From positions 1-64,000 of the forward strand of contig JAHBXV010000016.1 of the NCBI GenBank assembly GCA_019636285.1: a stretch of DNA of 64,000 bases, given 5' to 3'. The notes below the pieces were generated by a model. That model had not been told where the DNA came from. It did not search any database and saw nothing but the letters and a program-made list of their open reading frames with translations. Shown piece by piece: positions 6,834-63,528 of the stretch (positions are counted from its first letter, which is position 1; each line of letters starts with the position of its first letter). Both the position numbers and the translations under genes were made by a program. Source of the stretch: Planctomycetaceae bacterium (GTDB lineage Bacteria; Planctomycetota; Planctomycetia; Planctomycetales; Planctomycetaceae).

Positions 6834-7772
6834 ATGCTTGCTCGATTAAGTCTCGTTGTAGCGGTCTTGGCGCTGACCGGTTCCGCCTGGGGCGACCATC
6901 GAGTCCTCCTGCACGGCGACGGCCGTCTCGCCATCATCGAGCCCGACGGCCGCATCTCCTGGGAGATGCCCTGGGGCGGCATCCACGATCTTCACGTTCT
7001 CGACAACGGCCACATTCTCGTCCAGCAGGGAGCCGCGAAGGTCGCCGAGATCGACCCCGAGACCAAATCCGTCGTCTGGTCCTACGACTCCGCCACCGCA
7101 AATGGCAACGCGGGCAAGAAGGTCGAAGTCCACGCCTTCCAGCCGCTCGCGGACGGCCGCTTGATGATCGCCGAATCCGGGGCAGGACGGTTGATCGAGA
7201 TCGATCGCGAAGGTCACCTGCTCGGCCAGGTCCCGCTGAAGCTGAACCACCCGCATCCCCACACCGATACCCGACTCGCCCGCCGTCTCAAGAACGGCAA
7301 CCACCTCGTCTGCCACGAAGGGGACGGCACGGTCCGCGAATACTCCGCCGCCGAGAGAGCGCTCGTCTGGGAATACGAAGTCCCCCTGTTCGGCGAAGAG
7401 CCGCGCCCCGGTCACGGTCCCGAAGCCTACGGCAACAAATGCTTCGCCGCCGTCCGCCTGCCCACCGGCAACACGCTCATCTCAACCGGCAACGGCCACG
7501 GCGTCATCGAGGTCACCCCCAACAAAGAGGTCGTCTGGCGCATCGCCCAGCGAGACCTCCCCGGCATCACCCTCGCCTGGGTCACCACCCTCGAAGTCCT
7601 CCCCAACGGCAACTACATCCTCGGCAACTGCCACGCCGGCCCCAACCAACCCCTCCTCATCGAAATCGACCCGGCCACCAGGCGAGTCATCTGGACCCTC
7701 GACCGCTTCCAGGACTTCGGCAACAACGTCTCAAACAGCGTGTTGCTCGACGCGGAAGGCTCGCTGCGATAG
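6834..7772 (+). CDS. secreted PQQ-like/NHL beta-propeller protein
   Basis: A 312-residue protein; ATG 6834 is preceded by AGGA and opens a signal peptide (MLARLSLVVAVLALTGSAWG). The mature part is built from repeated blade motifs such as DGRISWEMPW, NGHILVQQG, KSVVWSYD, NGNYILGN and RRVIWTLD, typical of PQQ-like or arylsulfotransferase-like propellers that lack the enzyme motifs. No catalytic residues recognised. It starts 46 nt after the metallopeptidase and could be co-transcribed. Probably a periplasmic or extracellular binding protein. Confidence 0.85.
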   Translation: MLARLSLVVAVLALTGSAWGDHRVLLHGDGRLAIIEPDGRISWEMPWGGIHDLHVLDNGHILVQQGAAKVAEIDPETKSVVWSYDSATANGNAGKKVEVHAFQPLADGRLMIAESGAGRLIEIDREGHLLGQVPLKLNHPHPHTDTRLARRLKNGNHLVCHEGDGTVREYSAAERALVWEYEVPLFGEEPRPGHGPEAYGNKCFAAVRLPTGNTLISTGNGHGVIEVTPNKEVVWRIAQRDLPGITLAWVTTLEVLPNGNYILGNCHAGPNQPLLIEIDPATRRVIWTLDRFQDFGNNVSNSVLLDAEGSLR

Positions 7773-7911
7773 GGCCACCCTGCGGTAGGAGTGCCCGTTA
7801 AGATGACGACCCCGTCAGAATATGGGTTTCCATTAAGCAGCTTGGGTTTGCTCCCATCAAGAAGTAAGAGCCGATCAGCGTTTTTTGCCGCAATCAGCAC
7901 GGAGAGGACAC

Positions 7912-8373
7912 ATGTCGTTGAGAGAACGTGCGGTGGGTTCACCAAGGAGAGTCCGGGTTTACCGGCTGACAGGAACCCTGGTGACGATGTCGATAATCTA
8001 TGCAATCGGTGGATGTGCTCCCAATGATCCAGGCCCATTCTATTCGGGCGACTTTTTCGTCTTGAGCAAGAATGAAAAGGCGATTGTGATCAAGGACTGG
8101 GCGGGTTTCGGAATGGCCCGGCCACCGCAAGGCTATGTTGACATGGGCAAAGGGATGTCCGCTGACGGCCCCGAAACTCACTTTCCGAGGCTGGATTTCT
8201 TCCCGGAATCGACCGTAGTCACCTGGGTGCTTGAGGACGATCAAGAGGGAGAAGTCTTCTCTCAGGAGATCAATCTGAAGGGCATCGTCCCGCAGAACAC
8301 CGAAGGGCAGACAGAGTTCATTTTTGATGAAAATGGTGTGTGGACTGTCAGGTTTGTGGGCGCGGTGGAGTGA
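7912..8373 (+). CDS. hypothetical lipoprotein
   Basis: A 153-residue protein; ATG 7912 follows GGAGAGG at proper spacing. A signal with a basic N-terminus (SLRERAVGSPRRVRVYR) and hydrophobic core ends in IGGCAPND, a plausible lipobox. The rest (FFVLSKNEKAIVIKDW..) suggests a small beta-rich domain that I do not recognise. Base composition is visibly AT-richer than the genes to the left; it opens a 5-kb accessory stretch of poorly known proteins. Confidence 0.7.
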   Translation: MSLRERAVGSPRRVRVYRLTGTLVTMSIIYAIGGCAPNDPGPFYSGDFFVLSKNEKAIVIKDWAGFGMARPPQGYVDMGKGMSADGPETHFPRLDFFPESTVVTWVLEDDQEGEVFSQEINLKGIVPQNTEGQTEFIFDENGVWTVRFVGAVE

Positions 8374-8530
8374 TGCAAGTCGAGTGGATCTGCTTCAGGT
8401 TTTTTGGACAGAGTGAGCGCACTATTTTGGACGGCTCTGTGGCAGCGAGCCACAGGGCGGGTGTGGATGTCCTGAAGCAGGTGTTCGTTGATCGCCGTTC
8501 GCGCCCGAACAATCGATGAGTATCGCTCTT

Positions 8531-9793
8531 TCATTCGACGAATTTCGCTAACAAGATACGTGATCCTGCCATAGAGAGGAACTCTCTCGTTGCCGAATGG
8601 TACTGAACTGGCGCGAAGTCCTCCTGCTGAATCAGTCTCTCGCCGGACTCCACATCCCACACGGATGTTCCGAACTCGTCGCTGACTGAAAACAAGTATC
8701 CATCAAAAAACAAGGATGGAGCGACTTTCTTGGGGGGCCATGCTGATGTAGGGCGGACTCGCGGACCAGCGAACCAACGCAACTCGGTTCCCGTAACAAC
8801 ATCGAAAAGGCGAATTGCAGGAATCAGCCACTCGTCATCACTGCCCCAACCCCATACTGCCAATGTTGTTGGACCAACCCAACAGAGTGGACCATCCCAG
8901 TAATAATCGCGAGCGACCGGTAGCCGCAGCGAATCGCCATCTTCAGATTCCCAAGGATTCGACGTAACCCACTGCTGAAGATTCCACGTTCTGATCTGCC
9001 CGACCGGGTGCCAGATCCAACCATTGTCCGCAACCCATTGATTGTCGAGCGATACGGTCAATTGAGCATGGAAGTAGTCGAGGTAGTGAGGCGGTCGTTC
9101 TTCACTGCGTTCATATGAAGTGCTTGGGCGAGATGAGAGCAGTTCCCCCGATCGAAGATTGTAAATATCAAGTCGATTCCAATCCGTCGCAGTGATCGCG
9201 AGCGTGTGAATGCCGTCATCGCAGAAGGCAAATGGGAAAAATGAGTTCTCCGGGCGATAGTCACCTCGATCAAGAGGAAGAATGACCTCGCCTGTTTGAG
9301 CGTCGAGCACACTCCCGAATTGTGCTGAGGCCGGAAAGACGGCCACAAAATCAGCTCGCGAAGAGACTCGCAAACACGTCTCTTCGTCAATCGTGGCATC
9401 ACTCCGAATGGAAGCGATCCGAGAGACATATTGAAGCGTCTCGTCGAAAAATACGATCTCTCGCCTCGCAGTCAGACACGCCCAGCCGCCCGATGCGATG
9501 GGTTGGATGTCAATCACTTCGGTGTCGGACGGCAACGGCAATGCGACTTCCCGTGCCTCTAAGCGAAGCGACGTCTTTCGCACTTTGATCTCTGGCTCCC
9601 CTACGGTACCTACGCAGTTGAAGTGTCCGGCAAAGGTTGCCAACGCTTCCGGCTGAGCTTCAACGAGCGTATTCGGACTTGCCGGATACCGGTTCGCACA
9701 CTCTCTGCAGACGCAGTGATACTCGTTTCCAATTCCGGTGAACCAGACGAGGTGCTCATCCGAGCCGGGATGCAAGTGAGAGCAGTGGTACAT
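8531..9793 (-). CDS. hypothetical WD40-like beta-propeller protein
   Basis: A 420-residue cytoplasmic protein with no signal peptide. The N-terminus carries a Cys/His cluster (MYHCSHLHPG, then CVCRECANR) that could bind zinc. From about residue 90 on, WD-like blades recur: GWACLTARREIVFFD, TLAITATDWNRLDIYNLRSGELL, IRTWNLQQW, IRLFDVVTGTELRW, GTSVWDVESGERL. Similar paralogues are frequent in large planctomycete genomes; no function is known. AT-richer than the flanking core genes. Confidence 0.75.
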   Translation of the reverse strand: MYHCSHLHPGSDEHLVWFTGIGNEYHCVCRECANRYPASPNTLVEAQPEALATFAGHFNCVGTVGEPEIKVRKTSLRLEAREVALPLPSDTEVIDIQPIASGGWACLTARREIVFFDETLQYVSRIASIRSDATIDEETCLRVSSRADFVAVFPASAQFGSVLDAQTGEVILPLDRGDYRPENSFFPFAFCDDGIHTLAITATDWNRLDIYNLRSGELLSSRPSTSYERSEERPPHYLDYFHAQLTVSLDNQWVADNGWIWHPVGQIRTWNLQQWVTSNPWESEDGDSLRLPVARDYYWDGPLCWVGPTTLAVWGWGSDDEWLIPAIRLFDVVTGTELRWFAGPRVRPTSAWPPKKVAPSLFFDGYLFSVSDEFGTSVWDVESGERLIQQEDFAPVQYHSATREFLSMAGSRILLAKFVE

Positions 9794-9819
9794 ACGAACT
9801 TCTTGTTCAATTCCCCAAA

Positions 9820-9854
9820 GTGGCCCAGGTTGGCCGCAGACCTACCTGGGTGGC
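9820..9854. repeat. hairpin repeat CCCAGGTTGG family, copy 1
   Basis: GTGGCCCAGGTTGG and CCTACCTGGGTGGC form a hairpin. Related copies lie at 9933-9992, 11045-11085 and 50651-50695. This copy overlaps the extreme 5' side of the propeller gene's upstream region. Confidence 0.6.
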
Positions 9855-9932
9855 AATTCCAAAAGTGGTTGCCATTCACCCACCACTGCCGCAGGGAACT
9901 TAAGTTGCCGCGATTTTGTCGTTCTCACGCCC

Positions 9933-9992
9933 TGTGGCTTCGTCACACAGGTAGGGCGAAACGCCCAACCTGTGCCACCTCACAGATGTGAC
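9933..9992. repeat. hairpin repeat CCCAGGTTGG family, copy 2
   Basis: CACAGGTAGGGCG and CGCCCAACCTGTG pair around an AAA loop, followed by CCACC. Stem bases differ from copy 1 (CACAGG/CCTGTG instead of CCCAGG/CCTGGG) but pairing is kept. Confidence 0.55.
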
Positions 9993-10008
9993 CTCCTGCG
10001 GAGGGTCG

Positions 10009-10974
10009 TCACGGTTGAGTCTCATTGAACGATTCCACCAGTAACACAACCACCGCCGCCGTCAGGTGCAGCCCGAAACGTGCCAGCTGCGGTGCCACCT
10101 GTTGCCGATTGGCTCCTTGCCCATGTCCAGCCTTCTTGTTGCGCACAGTTGGGACGCCGCTTTCCAGCAGCGTGCGAAGAGACGTTAGTTGCTGCTGGGT
10201 AAACGTCGGCACCAAGTTGTTGCTGAGGCAAATCTCGATCAGCGGCTTCGCGGTGTCAGTTGGCTTGTACGGCCACCCCTTTACATCGCAAATGATCTTC
10301 ATTGAACTTTCAAACGCCTTGAGGCAATCGACAAGGCATTCAGTCAGGCGGCTATGCCGATAATGCTCGTACGCCTTCAAGAACTCCTCATTCGCTCCGG
10401 CAAATCGAGGGTCAGACAGCAGCGTGAGCGCAGGTGTGACCGCTTCGGAATGGAGGAGAGAGTTTGTCTGAACGATGATCTGCCCTGACTGGTATTGGTA
10501 GCCAATGCCGTGTTCGAGAAACCGCTGGTTGATCTCCCCAGCAACGGTGCTCGCATTGCACTCGTCGTCCAAAAGGCGGTGACGATCCCCTTTCTCAATC
10601 AATGCCATGACGATCTGCACGGAGTCGAGAACCTGCTCAGTCTCGCAGTTCTCGAAGAAGACCGTGAATTCGTCGCATAAATCCCTGGTCCTTGTGTCCT
10701 TCATCGACCGGACACGCCTTCTGATTTCCACGAGCCTCCCCATGCCGAGTTCACGGCGCAGGACAAGACACGCCTCGGCAAAGATGTCCGTACCTTCCGT
10801 GCCAATGGCGATGTAGGCGGGCACGGTGCGGTCACAGATTCTCTGTCGGGCATCGTCAAGGGCGTGGAGAAGCTGAATCCTCAATGGATGCGGAATATTG
10901 TCATAACAAAAGACATCCAGTGCCTTTCGGTCGGCTTCACGCTTCTTTCTGGAAAACAAGTCAAACACTGGCAC
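10009..10974 (-). CDS. STM4504/CBY_0614-like protein with abortive-infection-type C-terminus
   Basis: A 321-residue protein. The N-terminus MPVFDLFSRKKREADR..YDNIPHPLRIQ matches the opening of the STM4504/CBY_0614 family, related to AbiJ N-terminal domains. The C-terminal ~120 residues (AYEHYRHSRLTECLVDCLKAFESSMKIIC.., then VRNKKAGHGQG) look like the Abi-C domain, where the RN(x)4GHG stretch is the most conserved part. Such proteins are linked to phage abortive infection or are of unknown function in enterobacteria. It lies alone among lipoprotein genes in AT-richer DNA, which fits acquisition by transfer. Assignment is by remembered motifs, not a search. Confidence 0.65.
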   Translation of the reverse strand: MPVFDLFSRKKREADRKALDVFCYDNIPHPLRIQLLHALDDARQRICDRTVPAYIAIGTEGTDIFAEACLVLRRELGMGRLVEIRRRVRSMKDTRTRDLCDEFTVFFENCETEQVLDSVQIVMALIEKGDRHRLLDDECNASTVAGEINQRFLEHGIGYQYQSGQIIVQTNSLLHSEAVTPALTLLSDPRFAGANEEFLKAYEHYRHSRLTECLVDCLKAFESSMKIICDVKGWPYKPTDTAKPLIEICLSNNLVPTFTQQQLTSLRTLLESGVPTVRNKKAGHGQGANRQQVAPQLARFGLHLTAAVVVLLVESFNETQP

Positions 10975-11044
10975 CTTGATTCTCCATCTAGAGCGCCTTT
11001 CAAATCACGGAACAATTTGTTGTGGGCAAGCAAAGCGCATACCC

Positions 11045-11085
11045 GCAGGCTGACCCAGGTAGGCCTGCGCCCACCCGGTGCTACC
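11045..11085. repeat. hairpin repeat CCCAGGTTGG family, copy 3
   Basis: CGCAGGC and GCCTGCG pair around ACCCAGGTA; the sequence ACCCAGGTAGGCCTG is shared with the copy at 50651. It sits between the Abi-like gene and the DUF1963-like gene. Confidence 0.5.
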
Positions 11086-11090
11086 CCGCG

Positions 11091-12197
11091 TCAGTAGCTG
11101 TCCCAGGTCCAGGCAACCTTTCCATTCTCGTCGATCAGAAAGTACAGACAGCCCACGTCTGCGAACATCATGTTGTATTTTCCCCATCCATAATCATCGT
11201 CTAGTTTGCGCCAGTTGTCCGGTAACGTCTCAAGGCCGATGAACGGCCATTTGGCCCGCGGTGGATACGTTGACGGATGAATCGAATTGAGGGCGCATAG
11301 CAACTCATCATTGGGTCCGCGTGGGTCATTCTGAATGAAGTAAGCCTCGCGTCCAATCTTCGTCGATTGAGTCACGGGGAAAAGGTAGAACTGGTCATGG
11401 CCAGCCTTTTCAAACACATCCCGGCTCTCGGGAAACTCATTCGTGCGATAGATGTGGCCCGATAACCGCGGAACAGTGAACGACGGAGCTGGGCACTGTT
11501 CAGCAGAAACGGGTGTCTCCAGTTCGATGGAACTCCATTCGACGTGAATAGAATCGTCATTGTAGAGACCGTCGGCACCCTTGAAGAAAATCAGCATGAC
11601 GTCGTCAGGGAGCTTTTGCGAAACAATGTCGCGAGAATCAGCAAAGCAGAACTGACCAACGAACGTCAATGGCGTGCCATCGAGCGTAGGCCACGGCTTC
11701 GTCGATTCCCGGTGTGGCGTGCCGCCGAGTTTTGTGAGATAGGGTGCTTGCGGTGGGTCAACGCTCCAAAGAAAGAGATCAACTGGGACCGACCGTCCTA
11801 AATCCTGGGACCGAGCATATTGTTTGCGAACCAACTCGATTTCGCAGAGATGTGCAGGGCTGGTGATGATGGCACCGTGTGGCTTCCACAGGTCCAGGGG
11901 ATCGCCTTCCTCGGTCGAATCGAATCGACGTGGCCCGCTTGTCTTCTGAAATGTTTCAATGGGGAAGATCTTCGCCCAATGCTCGAAATCAACCTTGGGA
12001 TGCAAGCCTGACCCCTTCGCTTGGGCTTGCGGTGGCATCTCATGATGAGGCAACGGATTGCCCGGTGAGCAACCTGCCAGTGCGAGCATCAACAGGAAGC
12101 GGGCGTATCGAACGATACCTGCAAGGTAACAACTACTCGGCTGCCAAATTGCGGTAGATATGTGCCGCACTTCGGTGATGTGGCATGGGCTTATCAC
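11091..12197 (-). CDS. DUF1963 (YwqG)-like lipoprotein
   Basis: A protein of 368 residues from GTG 12197, which has GAGG 5 nt upstream; the frame is open to GTG 12365, but that start would place the lipoprotein signal at residue 90, so an internal start is more likely. The signal YARFLLMLALAGCS gives a clear lipobox. Tryptophan/proline-rich strings such as PWPTLDGTPLTFVGQFCFADS and GQFYLFP-like elements match the DUF1963/YwqG fold. Function unknown. Start position is the weak point. Confidence 0.7.
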   Translation of the reverse strand: MISPCHITEVRHISTAIWQPSSCYLAGIVRYARFLLMLALAGCSPGNPLPHHEMPPQAQAKGSGLHPKVDFEHWAKIFPIETFQKTSGPRRFDSTEEGDPLDLWKPHGAIITSPAHLCEIELVRKQYARSQDLGRSVPVDLFLWSVDPPQAPYLTKLGGTPHRESTKPWPTLDGTPLTFVGQFCFADSRDIVSQKLPDDVMLIFFKGADGLYNDDSIHVEWSSIELETPVSAEQCPAPSFTVPRLSGHIYRTNEFPESRDVFEKAGHDQFYLFPVTQSTKIGREAYFIQNDPRGPNDELLCALNSIHPSTYPPRAKWPFIGLETLPDNWRKLDDDYGWGKYNMMFADVGCLYFLIDENGKVAWTWDSY

Positions 12198-15687: not shown

Positions 15688-16081
15688 CGCCCGGCCTCCT
15701 GCTGATTACCATTCTAGAAGGACGTGGATAGTGGATAGGCGTTAGCATGGGCCAGAAGACCCATGCGTTTTCACTAACTACCAGCCACTAACCACCATCC
15801 ACTCCCCCCGAGTCTCCACGACACTATCACGACACCAGGCACCGTCCAACGAATACACATTCCAGACAAGGATTGCGCACGACGATCGAACGATGTCCTG
15901 ACACGGAAGGGCCTTCCGCCGAGTCGGCCGCGCGGTCTTGTCGGGTGCCGTTGGGGCTCGGGTCTCGACGGAACGTCCCCTGCGAATAACACGGGGGGTG
16001 CCACGCCATGAAGGCTTTGCGAAAGAGCGTGGGAGTTGTTCCTTCACCACGCCCTTCGAAGTGCCGGCCTGCGATCTCCGA
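15688..16081. other. intergenic, no gene recognised
   Basis: 394 nt between two genes on the minus strand. Contains an AACTACCAGCCACTAACCACC simple-repeat stretch around 15775-15806, the same style as seen at 35243 and 37204. Short frames here do not look like protein. Confidence 0.5.
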
Positions 16082-30698: not shown

Positions 30699-31016
30699 TC
30701 TCGTCCTCTCATCGCAACGCAGAACTTCACCCTCGGCAACTAGCCGCGCCCCAACGGGAAGCGCTCGCCTTCCGCTCCCATCACCCTCTTTTTTCCCTCC
30801 CCAACCACCAACCACGACCCACCAACCACTCTCTTTCCATCCCCCCTCCCCGCGTCCCCCTCTCTCTCTTCCTCCCCCTCTTAACCCTCAACCATAAACC
30901 CTCAACCATCGACCACCCCGTCCTTTGCCGCCCACCCACGATATGCTATTCCTCGTTCTCTTTCCGGCTCTCCGCTCTCGGCATTCCGCTTTCCGCTCGC
31001 TCTGTCAGGGAACCCC
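30699..31016. other. pyrimidine-rich intergenic region
   Basis: 318 nt between folK and the sigma factor gene. Holds TTAGCC-family copy 4 (30741-30765), long C/T-rich runs around 30790-30880, and AACCCTCAACCATAAACCC-type simple repeats at 30882-30917. No gene. Confidence 0.6.
30741..30765 (+). repeat. short dispersed repeat TTAGCCGCGACCC family, copy 4
   Basis: TAGCCGCGCCCC then AACGGGAAGCGCT. The A-to-C and G-to-A changes are shared with copy 5 at 37874, suggesting a subfamily. Confidence 0.75.
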
Positions 31017-31685: not shown

Positions 31686-33362
31686 ATGATCGACGATCAA
31701 CCCCTCTCCGACGACGACTCGCGAATACTCGCGCGTTTGCAGTCCTTGCAGGAAGCCCTCGAACGCGGCGACGGCCCCCGCTGCCGCGAACTCGTCGACA
31801 GGTATCCCGAACTCGCCCCCTTCGCCGGTTGCCTCGAACTCCTCGCCGAGTTCTCCCGCGAAATCGATTCCCCGACCGAGGGCGACGACTCCGACGTCAC
31901 CGTCCTCGGCCACTTCCCATCAAGTCCTACCTCGGCCAACTTTGCAGATGACTCGCGCTTGTTCGGCCGTTACGACCTCCTCGACGAACTCGGCCGCGGT
32001 GCCATGGGCGTCGTCTACCGTGCCCGCCATCGCGACCTCAACCGCCTCGTCGCCGTCAAAATGATCTCCTCCGGCCAGCTCGCCGGGCGCGATCTCGTAG
32101 ACCGCTTCTATCAGGAAGCTCGCGCCGCCGCTCGCCTGCGGCATCCCCACATCGTCGGCATTCACGACATCGGCGAAGTCTCCGGCCAGCACTACTTCGC
32201 GATGGACTTCGTCGCCGGCAAATCGCTCGCCGAGCACCTGCGGCAAAACGGGCTCCTCCATCCCGAGCAGGCCGCGAACCTCCTCGCCACGATCGCCGAA
32301 GCCGTCCATTACCTGCACGCACAGGGCATCGTCCATCGCGACCTTAAGCCCGCCAACATTCTGCTCGACGATCAATTCGCACCCTATGTCGCCGACTTCG
32401 GCCTCGCGAAAGTCTTCGAGGCCGGCAGCGTGCAGACCCGCACCGGAGCCATAGTCGGCACCCCCAGCTACATGTCCCCCGAACAGGCCGCCGGACGCAC
32501 CGATCGCGTCTCACCCCGCAGCGACGTCTACAGCCTCGGCGCCATCCTCTACGAACTCATCACCGGCCGGCCACCCTTCCGCGAACCCACCTGGACCGAA
32601 ACCGTCATTCAGGTCCTCGAAGGCGAGCCCATCCGCCCCACCCGAATCCACGCCACCGTTCCCCTCCCACTCGAACGCATCTGCCTCAAGGCTCTCGAAA
32701 AAGACCCCGAGCGTCGTTATGCGTCCGCCGCCGATCTCGCTGCCGATTTGAAGCGTTTCCTCCAGAACGAACCGGTCGACGCCTCCTCGGGCGGCGTCTG
32801 GCATCAGGTCGTTCGCTGGGCACGCCGCCAACCCGCGCTCGCCTGTCACTGGGGAGCCATCGCGATCGCCGCTCTCATCATCCAGATCCATGGTTGGCTC
32901 TTCCCCGAAGACGCCGGCAACTACCGCCTCATCGAAATCCTCCTCGCCGGTTGGGCTCTCCTGAGCGGCGGCTGGCAATGGCTCGCCAATCGCGACCGCA
33001 CCGAAGACCTCGGCAAAGCGGGTTTCCTCGTCACCGACGTCGCCATCGTCACCGCGTTCTTTCCGCTGGCCTCTGGCCCCCCCGGCACGCTTCAGGTCTT
33101 GTTCCCACTCCTCATCGCCGCCTCCGGCCTCTGGTTCCAGACACGACTCGTCTGGCTCACAACAGCCGCCTCGATCGTCGGAACGCTGTTCGGAGCCACC
33201 TTCATGCCCGCGCTCCGCACCCCCTGGCATTATCCCCTCATCGTCGTGACAGTCCTCTTCGTCACCGGCCTCGCCGTCACTCATCAGGTCGATCGCGTCC
33301 GCGCCCTCAGCCGCTTCTACGACCGCCGCCCCGGCCTCGAATCAAAACGGGGGATGCGTTGA
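31686..33362 (+). CDS. transmembrane Ser/Thr protein kinase
   Basis: 558 residues. An acidic N-terminal ~90 residues is followed by a complete Hanks-type kinase domain (~95-360): GRGAMGVVYRA loop, K125 (VAVKMIS), HRDLKPANILL (D219), DFGLA (D237), and GTPSYMSPEQAAGRTD. The C-terminal ~170 residues hold about six membrane helices (AIAIAALIIQIHGWLF to YPLIVVTVLFVTGLAVTH) and end in a short basic tail. It forms a pair with the ECF sigma factor directly upstream, a recurrent planctomycete signalling module. Confidence 0.94.
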   Translation: MIDDQPLSDDDSRILARLQSLQEALERGDGPRCRELVDRYPELAPFAGCLELLAEFSREIDSPTEGDDSDVTVLGHFPSSPTSANFADDSRLFGRYDLLDELGRGAMGVVYRARHRDLNRLVAVKMISSGQLAGRDLVDRFYQEARAAARLRHPHIVGIHDIGEVSGQHYFAMDFVAGKSLAEHLRQNGLLHPEQAANLLATIAEAVHYLHAQGIVHRDLKPANILLDDQFAPYVADFGLAKVFEAGSVQTRTGAIVGTPSYMSPEQAAGRTDRVSPRSDVYSLGAILYELITGRPPFREPTWTETVIQVLEGEPIRPTRIHATVPLPLERICLKALEKDPERRYASAADLAADLKRFLQNEPVDASSGGVWHQVVRWARRQPALACHWGAIAIAALIIQIHGWLFPEDAGNYRLIEILLAGWALLSGGWQWLANRDRTEDLGKAGFLVTDVAIVTAFFPLASGPPGTLQVLFPLLIAASGLWFQTRLVWLTTAASIVGTLFGATFMPALRTPWHYPLIVVTVLFVTGLAVTHQVDRVRALSRFYDRRPGLESKRGMR

Positions 33363-33461
33363 TGGTTGATGGTCGAAGGTTGATGGTTAACAATTAACGG
33401 CCAACCGGGGGTGGTGCTCTCTTCTCGACCATCAACCATCGACCTTCAACCATCAACCAGG
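33360..33461. repeat. palindromic array of GTTGATGG/CCATCAAC units
   Basis: Left arm: GTTGATGGTTGATGGTCGAA and on to 33394. Right arm: ACCATCAACCATCGACC from 33427 to 33461. The arms are largely complementary and enclose ~32 nt. Same-type simple repeats occur at 5826, 15775, 27354, 30882, 35243 and 37204. Confidence 0.7.
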
Positions 33462-36865: not shown

Positions 36866-37229
36866 GGTGGAGACTCCGTCGAAAACATCTTAAGAGAGAA
36901 TTGACGAATGCCAAAAACAGAACAGCTCGGCTGCGGCAAATGAATTCCACAGTCGAGCCCAATAAGCCGATACGCGCCGCAAAACGAATGCCGTATCGCA
37001 AGATTTGGCCCGTGCCCGCTAAATCGCCTGCTTTCGAGGGCAAGACATCTCGACGGCGTGGTGAGAGCTTTCAGCAATTCAAGACCTCTGTGCCGCAAAA
37101 TGCGACAACGCTGCGCAAGATTTCTGCTGTCATGAGTGACTGCTTTGGTTGAGCAGCACGGATGGCGACAGGTTTCAAAGAACTGCATGCCTGTCCCCGT
37201 CTTGCTAACCACCAACTACTAACCACCAA
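36866..37229. other. intergenic region between DUF1559 cassettes
   Basis: 364 nt. ACTAACCACCAACTAC repeats lie at 37204-37236, overlapping the end of the next lipoprotein gene. The rest is AT-richer and should contain the promoter of the DUF1559 gene; nothing specific seen. Confidence 0.4.
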
Positions 37230-37697
37230 CTACTTCTTCAACTCCAACCTAATATCCCCCTCGGCCGCCGGAATCTGAGCCGACAGCACGGTCTCATCCA
37301 GGCTGCTGTACTTAGGCGGCAACGCTTCCACCGCCCCCATGTCCGCCGGGGGAATGTTGGGATCGGGAACGATCGGCTTCCCCTGCCCATCGACCAGGTG
37401 GCTCACCACCACCTTGTAAGTCCCGGCCGGCGCGCCCACCGGGCCGCGCGGATGCTGCAGCTCGAATCGCCCCGACTCGTTCGTGATTCCCGAACATTCA
37501 ATCCCCTTGGTATCCCCCGAAGGAAAGAACATGACCATGGCATTCGGCAGCGGATCACCGTTCAGGGTGACCGTTCCAAAAACAAGCTCCGTCTCGGGAA
37601 TCGGCGGTTCACTGGCCCCAAAACAACCAGCCAGCACGAACGGGACAAGACACAGCGTGAAGCGAGACAATCGAGCGCGAATCGCAGTCTGTAACAT
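37230..37697 (-). CDS. small transthyretin-like lipoprotein, third cassette
   Basis: 155 residues from ATG 37697 (a TTG four codons upstream is possible). Lipobox VLAGCFG after FTLCLVPF. Beta-sandwich strings VFGTVTLNGDPLPNAMVMFFP, SGRFELQHPRGPVGAPAGTY and KVVVSHLVDG are close in plan to the other two lipoproteins. It lies 288 nt downstream of the DUF1559 gene at 38924-37986, with a TTAGCC-family repeat between. Confidence 0.88.
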   Translation of the reverse strand: MLQTAIRARLSRFTLCLVPFVLAGCFGASEPPIPETELVFGTVTLNGDPLPNAMVMFFPSGDTKGIECSGITNESGRFELQHPRGPVGAPAGTYKVVVSHLVDGQGKPIVPDPNIPPADMGAVEALPPKYSSLDETVLSAQIPAAEGDIRLELKK

Positions 37698-61695: not shown

Positions 61696-61783
61696 TTGGG
61701 GGCGAGGGGGCTGAACTTCGCCATAGTAACGAATTTGAAAAGGCGTGCTGAGAAGCATCAAGAGACTTGCAAAGGGTCGCAAT

Positions 61784-63367
61784 ATGAAGTTCAAGAGTGC
61801 GGCTCTTGACTGGGCGTTGGAACACATCATACGTCACGGCGACACAGACATCTTTCCGCGACTGTTTGAGTTCGATGCAATAAAAGGCCATTGGAAGGGA
61901 GGCGGTGGAGTCCGGGAGTGGATGCTGAGTCAAGATCCGCTGAAATGGCAAAGTCGGCCGCTCCGCAGATGCCTTGCGCCGAAGCACCGATTTGGGTTCC
62001 GGATTTCCACTCAGCTTGACCCGCTTGATTCAATCGCCTATGCAGCGCTTGTGTACGATTTAGGAAAGGATATTGAAAAACGCCGCCTACCATGCGACCG
62101 CGAGATCGTGCACAGCTATCGCTTTAGTCCGAAGCCAAACGGGCAGCTATACCACTCAGATTATGGTTGGAAGTCATTCCAAAAGCGGTCGAAGTCACTT
62201 GCCGAAAACCCAAAGTGTACTCATGTCGTAGTTGCTGATGTGGCAGATTTCTTTCCAAAAATATATTCCCATCCGCTAGAGAATGAGCTGGTCGCGTGCA
62301 CTGCTCGCCACAAGTCGGCTGCCAAGGCTTTGCTGAGGATGCTCAAACATTGGAATTCAACGATTTCGTATGGCGTACCGGTGGGGCCGGCTGTGTCGCG
62401 GCTGGTCTCCGAGTTGGCATTGACGATCATAGACAACGCTCTTGTAGGGGCAAATGCCGTATACTGCAGATTCTCTGATGACTTTCGAATCTTTTGTCAT
62501 AGTCAGCGAGAGGCTCACGAGCGGCTTGCATTCTTGGCACAGATGCTTTTCGAGGGGCTTGGGCTGACTTTGCAGCAAAGCAAGACAAGGATTCAAACGA
62601 GCGTCGAGTTCAGTAAGACGCTGGTGTCGCCTCGGCAACAGGAACGGCGCCGCCTGTCATCGCAGTTTGACGATATTATAGATGCAATTGGTCTGAGCGA
62701 TCCATATAAAAAGATCGACTATGAGTCGCTCAATAAGGTGCAAAAGGCGATGGTCGACTCGCTGAACTTGTCGCAAGTGCTGGCCGAACAGATTGTTTTG
62801 GGTGAGGATCTGGATATTCCCGTTGCATCATTTGTACTTAGGCGACTCTCCCAGTTGAGGGACAGTAGTAGTTTTGCTCGGGTTTTGGAGCGTCTCGATG
62901 CACTGTATTCGGTGTTTCCGGATGCGATAAGCTATATTGCTTCATTGGAGGGCATTCACGGTAACACAAGAAGAGTGATTGGCGCGAAGCTTCTGAGTGC
63001 GCTAGATGACACGGTTAGCGGGCATTTGGAGTTTCATCGATGCTGGGTGCTTAGCGTGTTTGCCAACAGTGACAAGTGGGATAATGAGCATGTTCTCGGC
63101 GGGCTTGAGAGCAAATGGTCGGACATTTTTACGAGGCGCGAGCTGATTATTGCTCGGGGCCGGGCGGGACATGATTCTTGGTTTAAGAAGGAGAAGCTCA
63201 ACTTTGAGAATATGGGGCCTTGGGAACGGCGTGCCTTTTTGTACGCAGCTAGCTGTCTACCGGGCGACGAGCCAAAGCATTGGTGGGATGGATTGAAGCA
63301 AGGCGGCAAACTGGATCCCGTCGAGAGAGCGATTGTTGGATATGGAAAGCAGCACCCGATCCGATAA
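61784..63367 (+). CDS. reverse transcriptase of UG/Abi-like type
   Basis: 527 residues from ATG 61784 (AGGG 7 nt upstream). Palm motifs: VVVADVADFFPKIYSH with catalytic D152; SYGVPVGPAVSRLVSELAL (motif 4); YCRFSDDFRIFCHS with F-S-D232-D233 in place of the usual Y-x-D-D; GLGLTLQQSKTRI with the motif 6 lysine. About 240 further residues form an alpha-helical extension (RRLSQLRDSSSFARVLERL..), as in abortive-infection and unknown-group RTs. There is no maturase, HNH or thumb domain of group II introns, motif 4 lacks the SQ of DGR enzymes, and the 88-nt gap upstream is too short for a retron RNA. Much AT-richer than its neighbours, so probably acquired. A defence role is inference. Confidence 0.88.
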   Translation: MKFKSAALDWALEHIIRHGDTDIFPRLFEFDAIKGHWKGGGGVREWMLSQDPLKWQSRPLRRCLAPKHRFGFRISTQLDPLDSIAYAALVYDLGKDIEKRRLPCDREIVHSYRFSPKPNGQLYHSDYGWKSFQKRSKSLAENPKCTHVVVADVADFFPKIYSHPLENELVACTARHKSAAKALLRMLKHWNSTISYGVPVGPAVSRLVSELALTIIDNALVGANAVYCRFSDDFRIFCHSQREAHERLAFLAQMLFEGLGLTLQQSKTRIQTSVEFSKTLVSPRQQERRRLSSQFDDIIDAIGLSDPYKKIDYESLNKVQKAMVDSLNLSQVLAEQIVLGEDLDIPVASFVLRRLSQLRDSSSFARVLERLDALYSVFPDAISYIASLEGIHGNTRRVIGAKLLSALDDTVSGHLEFHRCWVLSVFANSDKWDNEHVLGGLESKWSDIFTRRELIIARGRAGHDSWFKKEKLNFENMGPWERRAFLYAASCLPGDEPKHWWDGLKQGGKLDPVERAIVGYGKQHPIR

Positions 63368-63528
63368 CGTGTGATTTTGCGAAGTGGTCCAAGAATGGGA
63401 CGTGAGGCGGATCAATATCGGGCCACACGTTGGGGGCCGTTTGACTTCCGCGCCATCACTCCCATTCTTCGGTCCGTCGTGTACCATGATGGGCGAAATT
63501 CTCACCAAACGATTTTCGTTGGGGTTTG

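Follow-up and report, generated by a model that had tools for sequence, protein, structure and literature searches.

A partnerless DRT8-family reverse transcriptase in a planctomycete, with a conserved linker tyrosine as its candidate DNA-priming residue

What kind of reverse transcriptase (RT) stands alone on a planctomycete chromosome, and what, besides itself, might it use to make DNA? The question is raised by an uninterrupted open reading frame near the end of the window, the 64,000-nucleotide stretch of Planctomycetaceae DNA that was analyzed. The frame begins with an ATG at 61784, its stop codon ends at 63367, and it encodes 527 amino acids; homologues back this start, and an in-frame GTG is also found at 61745. 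An initial annotation, made without database searches, had described an atypical RT of UG/Abi character that might represent a new subfamily or work with a hidden non-coding RNA. The gene and its parts are as follows.

61784-63367, + strand: intact gene for a DRT8-family (class 1 UG/Abi) RT of 527 aa, by open reading frame, PADLOC Drt8 profile and tree
61771-61776, + strand: possible ribosome-binding site AAAGGG, 7 nt before the ATG, proposed from the sequence only
61841-61858, + strand: conserved N-terminal motif D-T-D-I-F-P of DRT8 proteins, codons 20-25 (62-64 homologues)
61964-62620, + strand: RT fingers and palm, residues ~61-279, by RVT_1 and the secondary structure of the model
62237-62239, + strand: catalytic Asp152 of motif A, invariant in alignments A2 and A3; catalytic motif by alignment to solved RTs
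62477-62482, + strand: catalytic Asp232-Asp233 of the FSDD box, invariant in alignments A2 and A3
62690-62734, + strand: loop linking the RT and helical domains, residues ~303-317, with no predicted helix or strand of 4 or more residues
62735-63352, + strand: C-terminal helical-repeat domain, residues 318-523, with predicted helices throughout and full-length Foldseek alignments

The protein is a complete RT with intact catalytic residues. Pfam RVT_1 matches residues 132-274 (E 2e-13), and the palm motifs named by the initial annotation are all found: DVADFF, which carries D152, GVPVGPAVSRLVSELAL, and RFSDDFRIF, which carries D232 and D233. The FSDD active site that it pointed out is nothing unusual: most members of the family have V, A, N or S as the x of [YF]xDD, with S occurring in the homologues L061, L067, L083 and L084 as well. 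In the N-terminal motif, D20 is invariant and D22, F24 and P25 are conserved at 90% or more. The long helical C-terminus was borne out by an AlphaFold2 model (mean pLDDT 93.7, pTM 0.93; lowest confidence at residues 281-310), in which residues 318-523 are almost wholly helical. Model and fold search thus both display the class 1 UG/Abi feature of an RT fused to an alpha-helical repeat domain. The best PDB matches of the model in Foldseek, all with full-length alignments, were DRT4/UG15, DRT6, AbiK and Abi-P2; AbiA matched more weakly.

Profile searches name the family. PADLOC Drt8 (PDLC03783) scores 474.6 bits and aligns residues 4-520 with profile positions 3-488 of 493, whereas the runner-up among PADLOC models, UG21, scores 151.4 bits; no NCBIfam equivalog reached its cut-off for this protein. 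We take DRT8, as modeled by PADLOC Drt8, to be UG7. In an RT-domain tree whose outgroups come mainly from planctomycete genomes rather than from the full UG1-UG28 set, eight of them classified, the window protein falls within a 25-row DRT8 clade (support 95/93), and DRT8 groups with the class 1 RTs UG14, Drt6 and Abi-P2 (97/94). Two retron-type and many group II-like RTs fall elsewhere in that tree. The group II maturase model gives 54.6 bits against a cut-off of 300, and Rfam scans near the gene matched no family, including the intron domains V and VI of group II elements and the msr-msd RNA of retrons. Profiles, fold matches and tree therefore agree with the earlier view that the protein is not a group II, retron or DGR RT and that it belongs with the UG/Abi RTs. 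Together, the Drt8 profile, the RT tree and the confident model with its class 1 matches settle family membership, and we regard assignment to DRT8, within class 1 UG/Abi, as nearly certain. The suggested new subfamily did not materialize as such, since the Drt8 model covers the protein from end to end. The host genome carries two further RT genes. One of them, L138, has a retron-type RT domain; the other, L139, is matched best in PADLOC by a general RT model. L138 (G000:C38, 1258-3627, minus strand) encodes at least 790 aa, with the RT domain C-terminal and more than 430 residues before it.

To place the gene within its family, homologues were drawn from 80 genome contigs, 5 viral contigs, three plasmids and planctomycete genomes. 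A single-sequence search of the genome contigs returned no relative and an alignment query did find relatives; phage records gave none, and five viral contigs had them. Thirteen nearest relatives, at 39-48% identity, form with the window RT a clade of 14 sequences, which we call the solo clade (SH-aLRT 99 in one tree; 99/93 in the RT-domain tree with outgroups; both for the members included in the trees). The rest of the DRT8 family is ~24-33% identical to the window RT. Solo-clade members come from Ignavibacteria, Bacillota, Planctomycetota, Bacteroidota, Acidobacteriota, Thermodesulfobacteriota, Pseudomonadota and KSB1, and because they were retrieved by one conserved peptide pattern, further members are likely. 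A dN/dS of 0.07 in the one pair measured, L057 and the Paenibacillus homologue L058, indicates that the protein is kept for function.

The history of the window gene itself is less easily read. Its GC content is 51.5%, against 60.5% for the window, making it the lowest-GC ~1.6 kb there (2 of 313 windows of the same length are as low), and it is present in a single copy in the 6.37 Mb genome. The picture of a single, AT-rich, inserted gene was therefore confirmed. It had also been placed between core genes; the neighbors, a PVC-type dehydrogenase/cytochrome-like protein (judged from sequence) and a DJ-1/PfpI protein, are indeed chromosomal, but the label "core" is not apt. No flanking repeats of note and no tRNA were found as mobile-element ends around the gene. 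Both flanking genes were found in relatives of the host, ~3 Mb apart in the nearest one and on different contigs in two others, so no empty insertion site could be read and the insertion is undatable from host synteny. One might suppose from the AT-richness, the single copy, the lack of adjoining defense genes and the lack of flanking-gene synteny that would date the insertion that the gene is decaying or non-functional. We consider this extremely improbable given the full-length frame, the intact catalytic and invariant residues, and the strong purifying selection in the clade, measured as it was in one pair. Elsewhere in the window, at 15772-15803, 30883-30909, 33361-33459 and 37205-37234, we observed short arrays of 7-nt units of the AACCATC/AACCACC type, of which the one at 33361-33459 forms a long near-perfect hairpin (MFE -50 kcal/mol).

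The clearest difference between the solo clade and other DRT8 proteins lies in what stands next to the RT. In another DRT8 clade, a PDDEXK gene (PADLOC RTasPDDEXK, PDLC03797) overlaps the RT stop codon at 12 of 12 loci, and this two-gene arrangement is presumably the form of DRT8 that has been tested experimentally. The partner is absent beside the RT in every member of the solo clade, the window locus included. Solo-clade RTs stand alone, and their neighbors vary between loci: an HNH effector-like gene at L057, a PDC-S57-like gene at L060, a SIR2-like DUF4917 gene at L061, a PDC-S11 nuclease-like gene at L062 and, a few kilobases off, a type I methyltransferase at L065. It is suggestive that several of these are candidate defense genes, a different one at each locus.

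The solo clade joins the RT+PDDEXK clade in a supported group (100/97 in the RT-domain tree), so the solo RTs may have lost a partner or exchanged it for another. This opens an alternative in which the DNA made by a solo RT activates an effector encoded elsewhere that takes the place of the PDDEXK nuclease, and the nuclease- or SIR2-type genes beside several solo RTs would fit it. We nonetheless think it unlikely. The neighbors are not conserved, those of the window RT are neither effectors nor defense genes, and a search of the host genome, run without a positive control, found no PDDEXK relative.

Other surroundings were seen across the wider family. The DRT8 RT of L023 (G071, 7216-9204) has an N-terminal extension opening LNGDQ..LSLREAMV.SL..I.DL.DLL; this opening recurs in the next two genes, at 9629 and 10475, and by eye resembles an effector-associated adaptor domain. 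At L024 (G153, 9239-11544), the RT overlaps a gene whose product, a nuclease, combines a NERD domain with a topoisomerase-type zinc ribbon and differs from the nuclease found in the PDDEXK clade; between L024 and its close relative L099, homology ends within 22 nt after the RT. On the Aminobacter plasmid pANY103b (L021, 5998-9683), the RT adjoins a retron type VII-A1 RT-DUF3800 gene, and a HerA/DUF87 ATPase lies on the opposite side. RT+PDDEXK pairs at L119, L123 and L133-L136, from Citrobacter and viral contigs, lie just after phage-type integrase-like genes and look like cargo of satellite or prophage elements.

If no protein partner is encoded beside the RT, a non-coding RNA might be. The initial annotation had raised this possibility and suggested looking for conserved flanking RNA among homologues; nothing conserved was found. 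Between relatives with different surroundings, homology in blastn begins no more than 35 nt before the open reading frame and ends no more than 22 nt after it, as seen in six pairs (L057/L058, L070/L080, L082/L086, L092/L093, L092/L102 and L024/L099). In the RT+PDDEXK pairs L111/L114 and L119/L123, homology runs ~700 nt past the RT, the length taken up by the partner gene, so the comparison is able to reveal a partner where there is one. A conserved cis-encoded RNA like those of class 2 systems ought to be visible in it as well. The one local feature of interest lies downstream of the gene.

63388-63475, + strand: imperfect hairpin downstream of the RT gene (z -2.8 to -3.2; rank 12 of 533 windows)

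This hairpin, ~20-108 nt past the stop codon and unique in the genome, with a z-score of about -3, is what speaks for an RNA copied by the RT, as in the class 2 systems DRT2, DRT3a and DRT9. It ranks only 12th, fold z-scores around the homologues revealed no common position of strong folding, and it is probably a local structural or terminator-like element rather than an RNA component. Sequence, fold and tree, moreover, all place the protein in class 1 and not class 2. As DNA homology between relatives stops at the ends of the open reading frame, a cis-encoded RNA is unlikely, and we give the RNA-copying alternative very little credence.

How a lone RT might start DNA synthesis is suggested by the class 1 RTs studied so far: they are reported to form homo-oligomers that carry out untemplated, protein-primed DNA synthesis. 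AbiK and Abi-P2, which are template-independent, prime from tyrosines in an N-terminal fingers loop (Tyr44 and Tyr61, respectively), and in AbiA the primer is Tyr298, which lies in the loop (290-310) connecting the RT to the helical domain. The first 85 residues of the window protein contain no tyrosine, and priming in the style of AbiK or Abi-P2 is thus unavailable to it. It does have a tyrosine in the linker.

62705-62707, + strand: Tyr308, the predicted DNA-priming tyrosine, by conservation and loop position

Of the 20 invariant columns in the 64-protein alignment A2, a single one is tyrosine, that of Tyr308 (64/64). The helices on either side of this residue span 283-302 and 318-326, and it borders the least confident region of the model. 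Across 93 proteins, truncated ones included, the column holds tyrosine in 80-86 under three MAFFT settings and in 61 under a high gap penalty, the losses being mainly in truncated or divergent members. The same signal appears when no alignment is used: of 85 distinct proteins, 95% have a tyrosine in the stretch +75 to +82 counted from R[FY]xDD (four divergent members lack it). At +79/80, a 3-residue window contains one in 82%, compared with a median of 7% over the windows of this size that follow the box. In L111 and L119, which are RT+PDDEXK loci, the linker tyrosine sits within an FDPY motif. Its conservation, the lack of an N-terminal tyrosine, the position of AbiA Tyr298 in the equivalent loop and the finding that two Abi-P2-type RTs have no tyrosine in this linker make Tyr308 the best candidate, and probably the residue, for priming. 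Neither the partnerless clade nor this invariant residue was within view of the initial annotation.

A conserved tyrosine need not be a primer. Tyr308 could be kept for structure or for stacking on product DNA, as tyrosines of AbiK and AbiA do, while another hydroxyl (a serine, a threonine or another tyrosine) primes; DRT1 primes on a serine, and columns 112 (0.89), 384 (0.86) and 161 (0.81) are also well-kept tyrosines. None of these three is invariant, however, and Tyr308 lies in a variable loop in which the flanking residues and the exact position drift while the tyrosine stays, which makes a purely structural or stacking role, in our view, rather unlikely.

The window RT resembles several known systems and differs from each in some respects. 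It shares with the two-gene DRT8 system the full-length match to the RT model, the RT core, the helical C-terminus and the linker tyrosine, and differs in its clade's lack of the overlapping nuclease gene. DRT4/UG15 and DRT6 are likewise single-gene class 1 systems and its best structural matches (TM by query 0.49-0.63), but at 14-17% identity they are distinct RT families by profile and, for the Drt6 type, also by tree. AbiA likewise joins a UG/Abi RT to a helical domain, and its priming tyrosine lies in the connecting loop; it differs in being a dimer with a C-terminal HEPN domain and is the weaker structural match (TM by query 0.42-0.47). AbiK and Abi-P2 have the class 1 fold in common with the window RT and differ in the site of their priming tyrosine. 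In reviews from 2026, DRT8 appears with the systems for which phage resistance, but no mechanism, has been reported; we found no published mechanism for DRT8 in the papers searched.

By analogy with these systems, we infer the polymerase activity, oligomeric state, priming residue, trigger and antiphage effect of the window RT, and we consider the following model likely. The RT would homo-oligomerize, as do AbiK, AbiA, DRT4 and DRT6, and D152, D232 and D233 would drive DNA synthesis without an RNA template. Each strand would start on the RT's own tyrosine, most likely Tyr308, leaving the RT covalently attached to its product. Accumulation or stabilization of this DNA during phage infection would then block the phage or the infected cell; one possible trigger logic is that of DRT4, for which a phage protein is reported to stabilize toxic single-stranded DNA. 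The antiphage role of the window gene is assumed here from its family and not from its surroundings.

A broader and more tentative proposal, which we would not yet bet on, is that the solo clade is a self-sufficient one-gene form of DRT8 making tyrosine-linked DNA of a composition new among DRTs, that Tyr308 primes synthesis throughout DRT8, and that the PDDEXK nuclease is an add-on of one clade rather than part of the core. Our comparison sets the one-gene form apart from the RT+PDDEXK form within DRT8, argues against a hidden RNA, and yields a single-residue prediction, Tyr308 (Y308F). Both the way in which DRT8 makes DNA and any dependence on its nuclease thereby become directly testable with small constructs.
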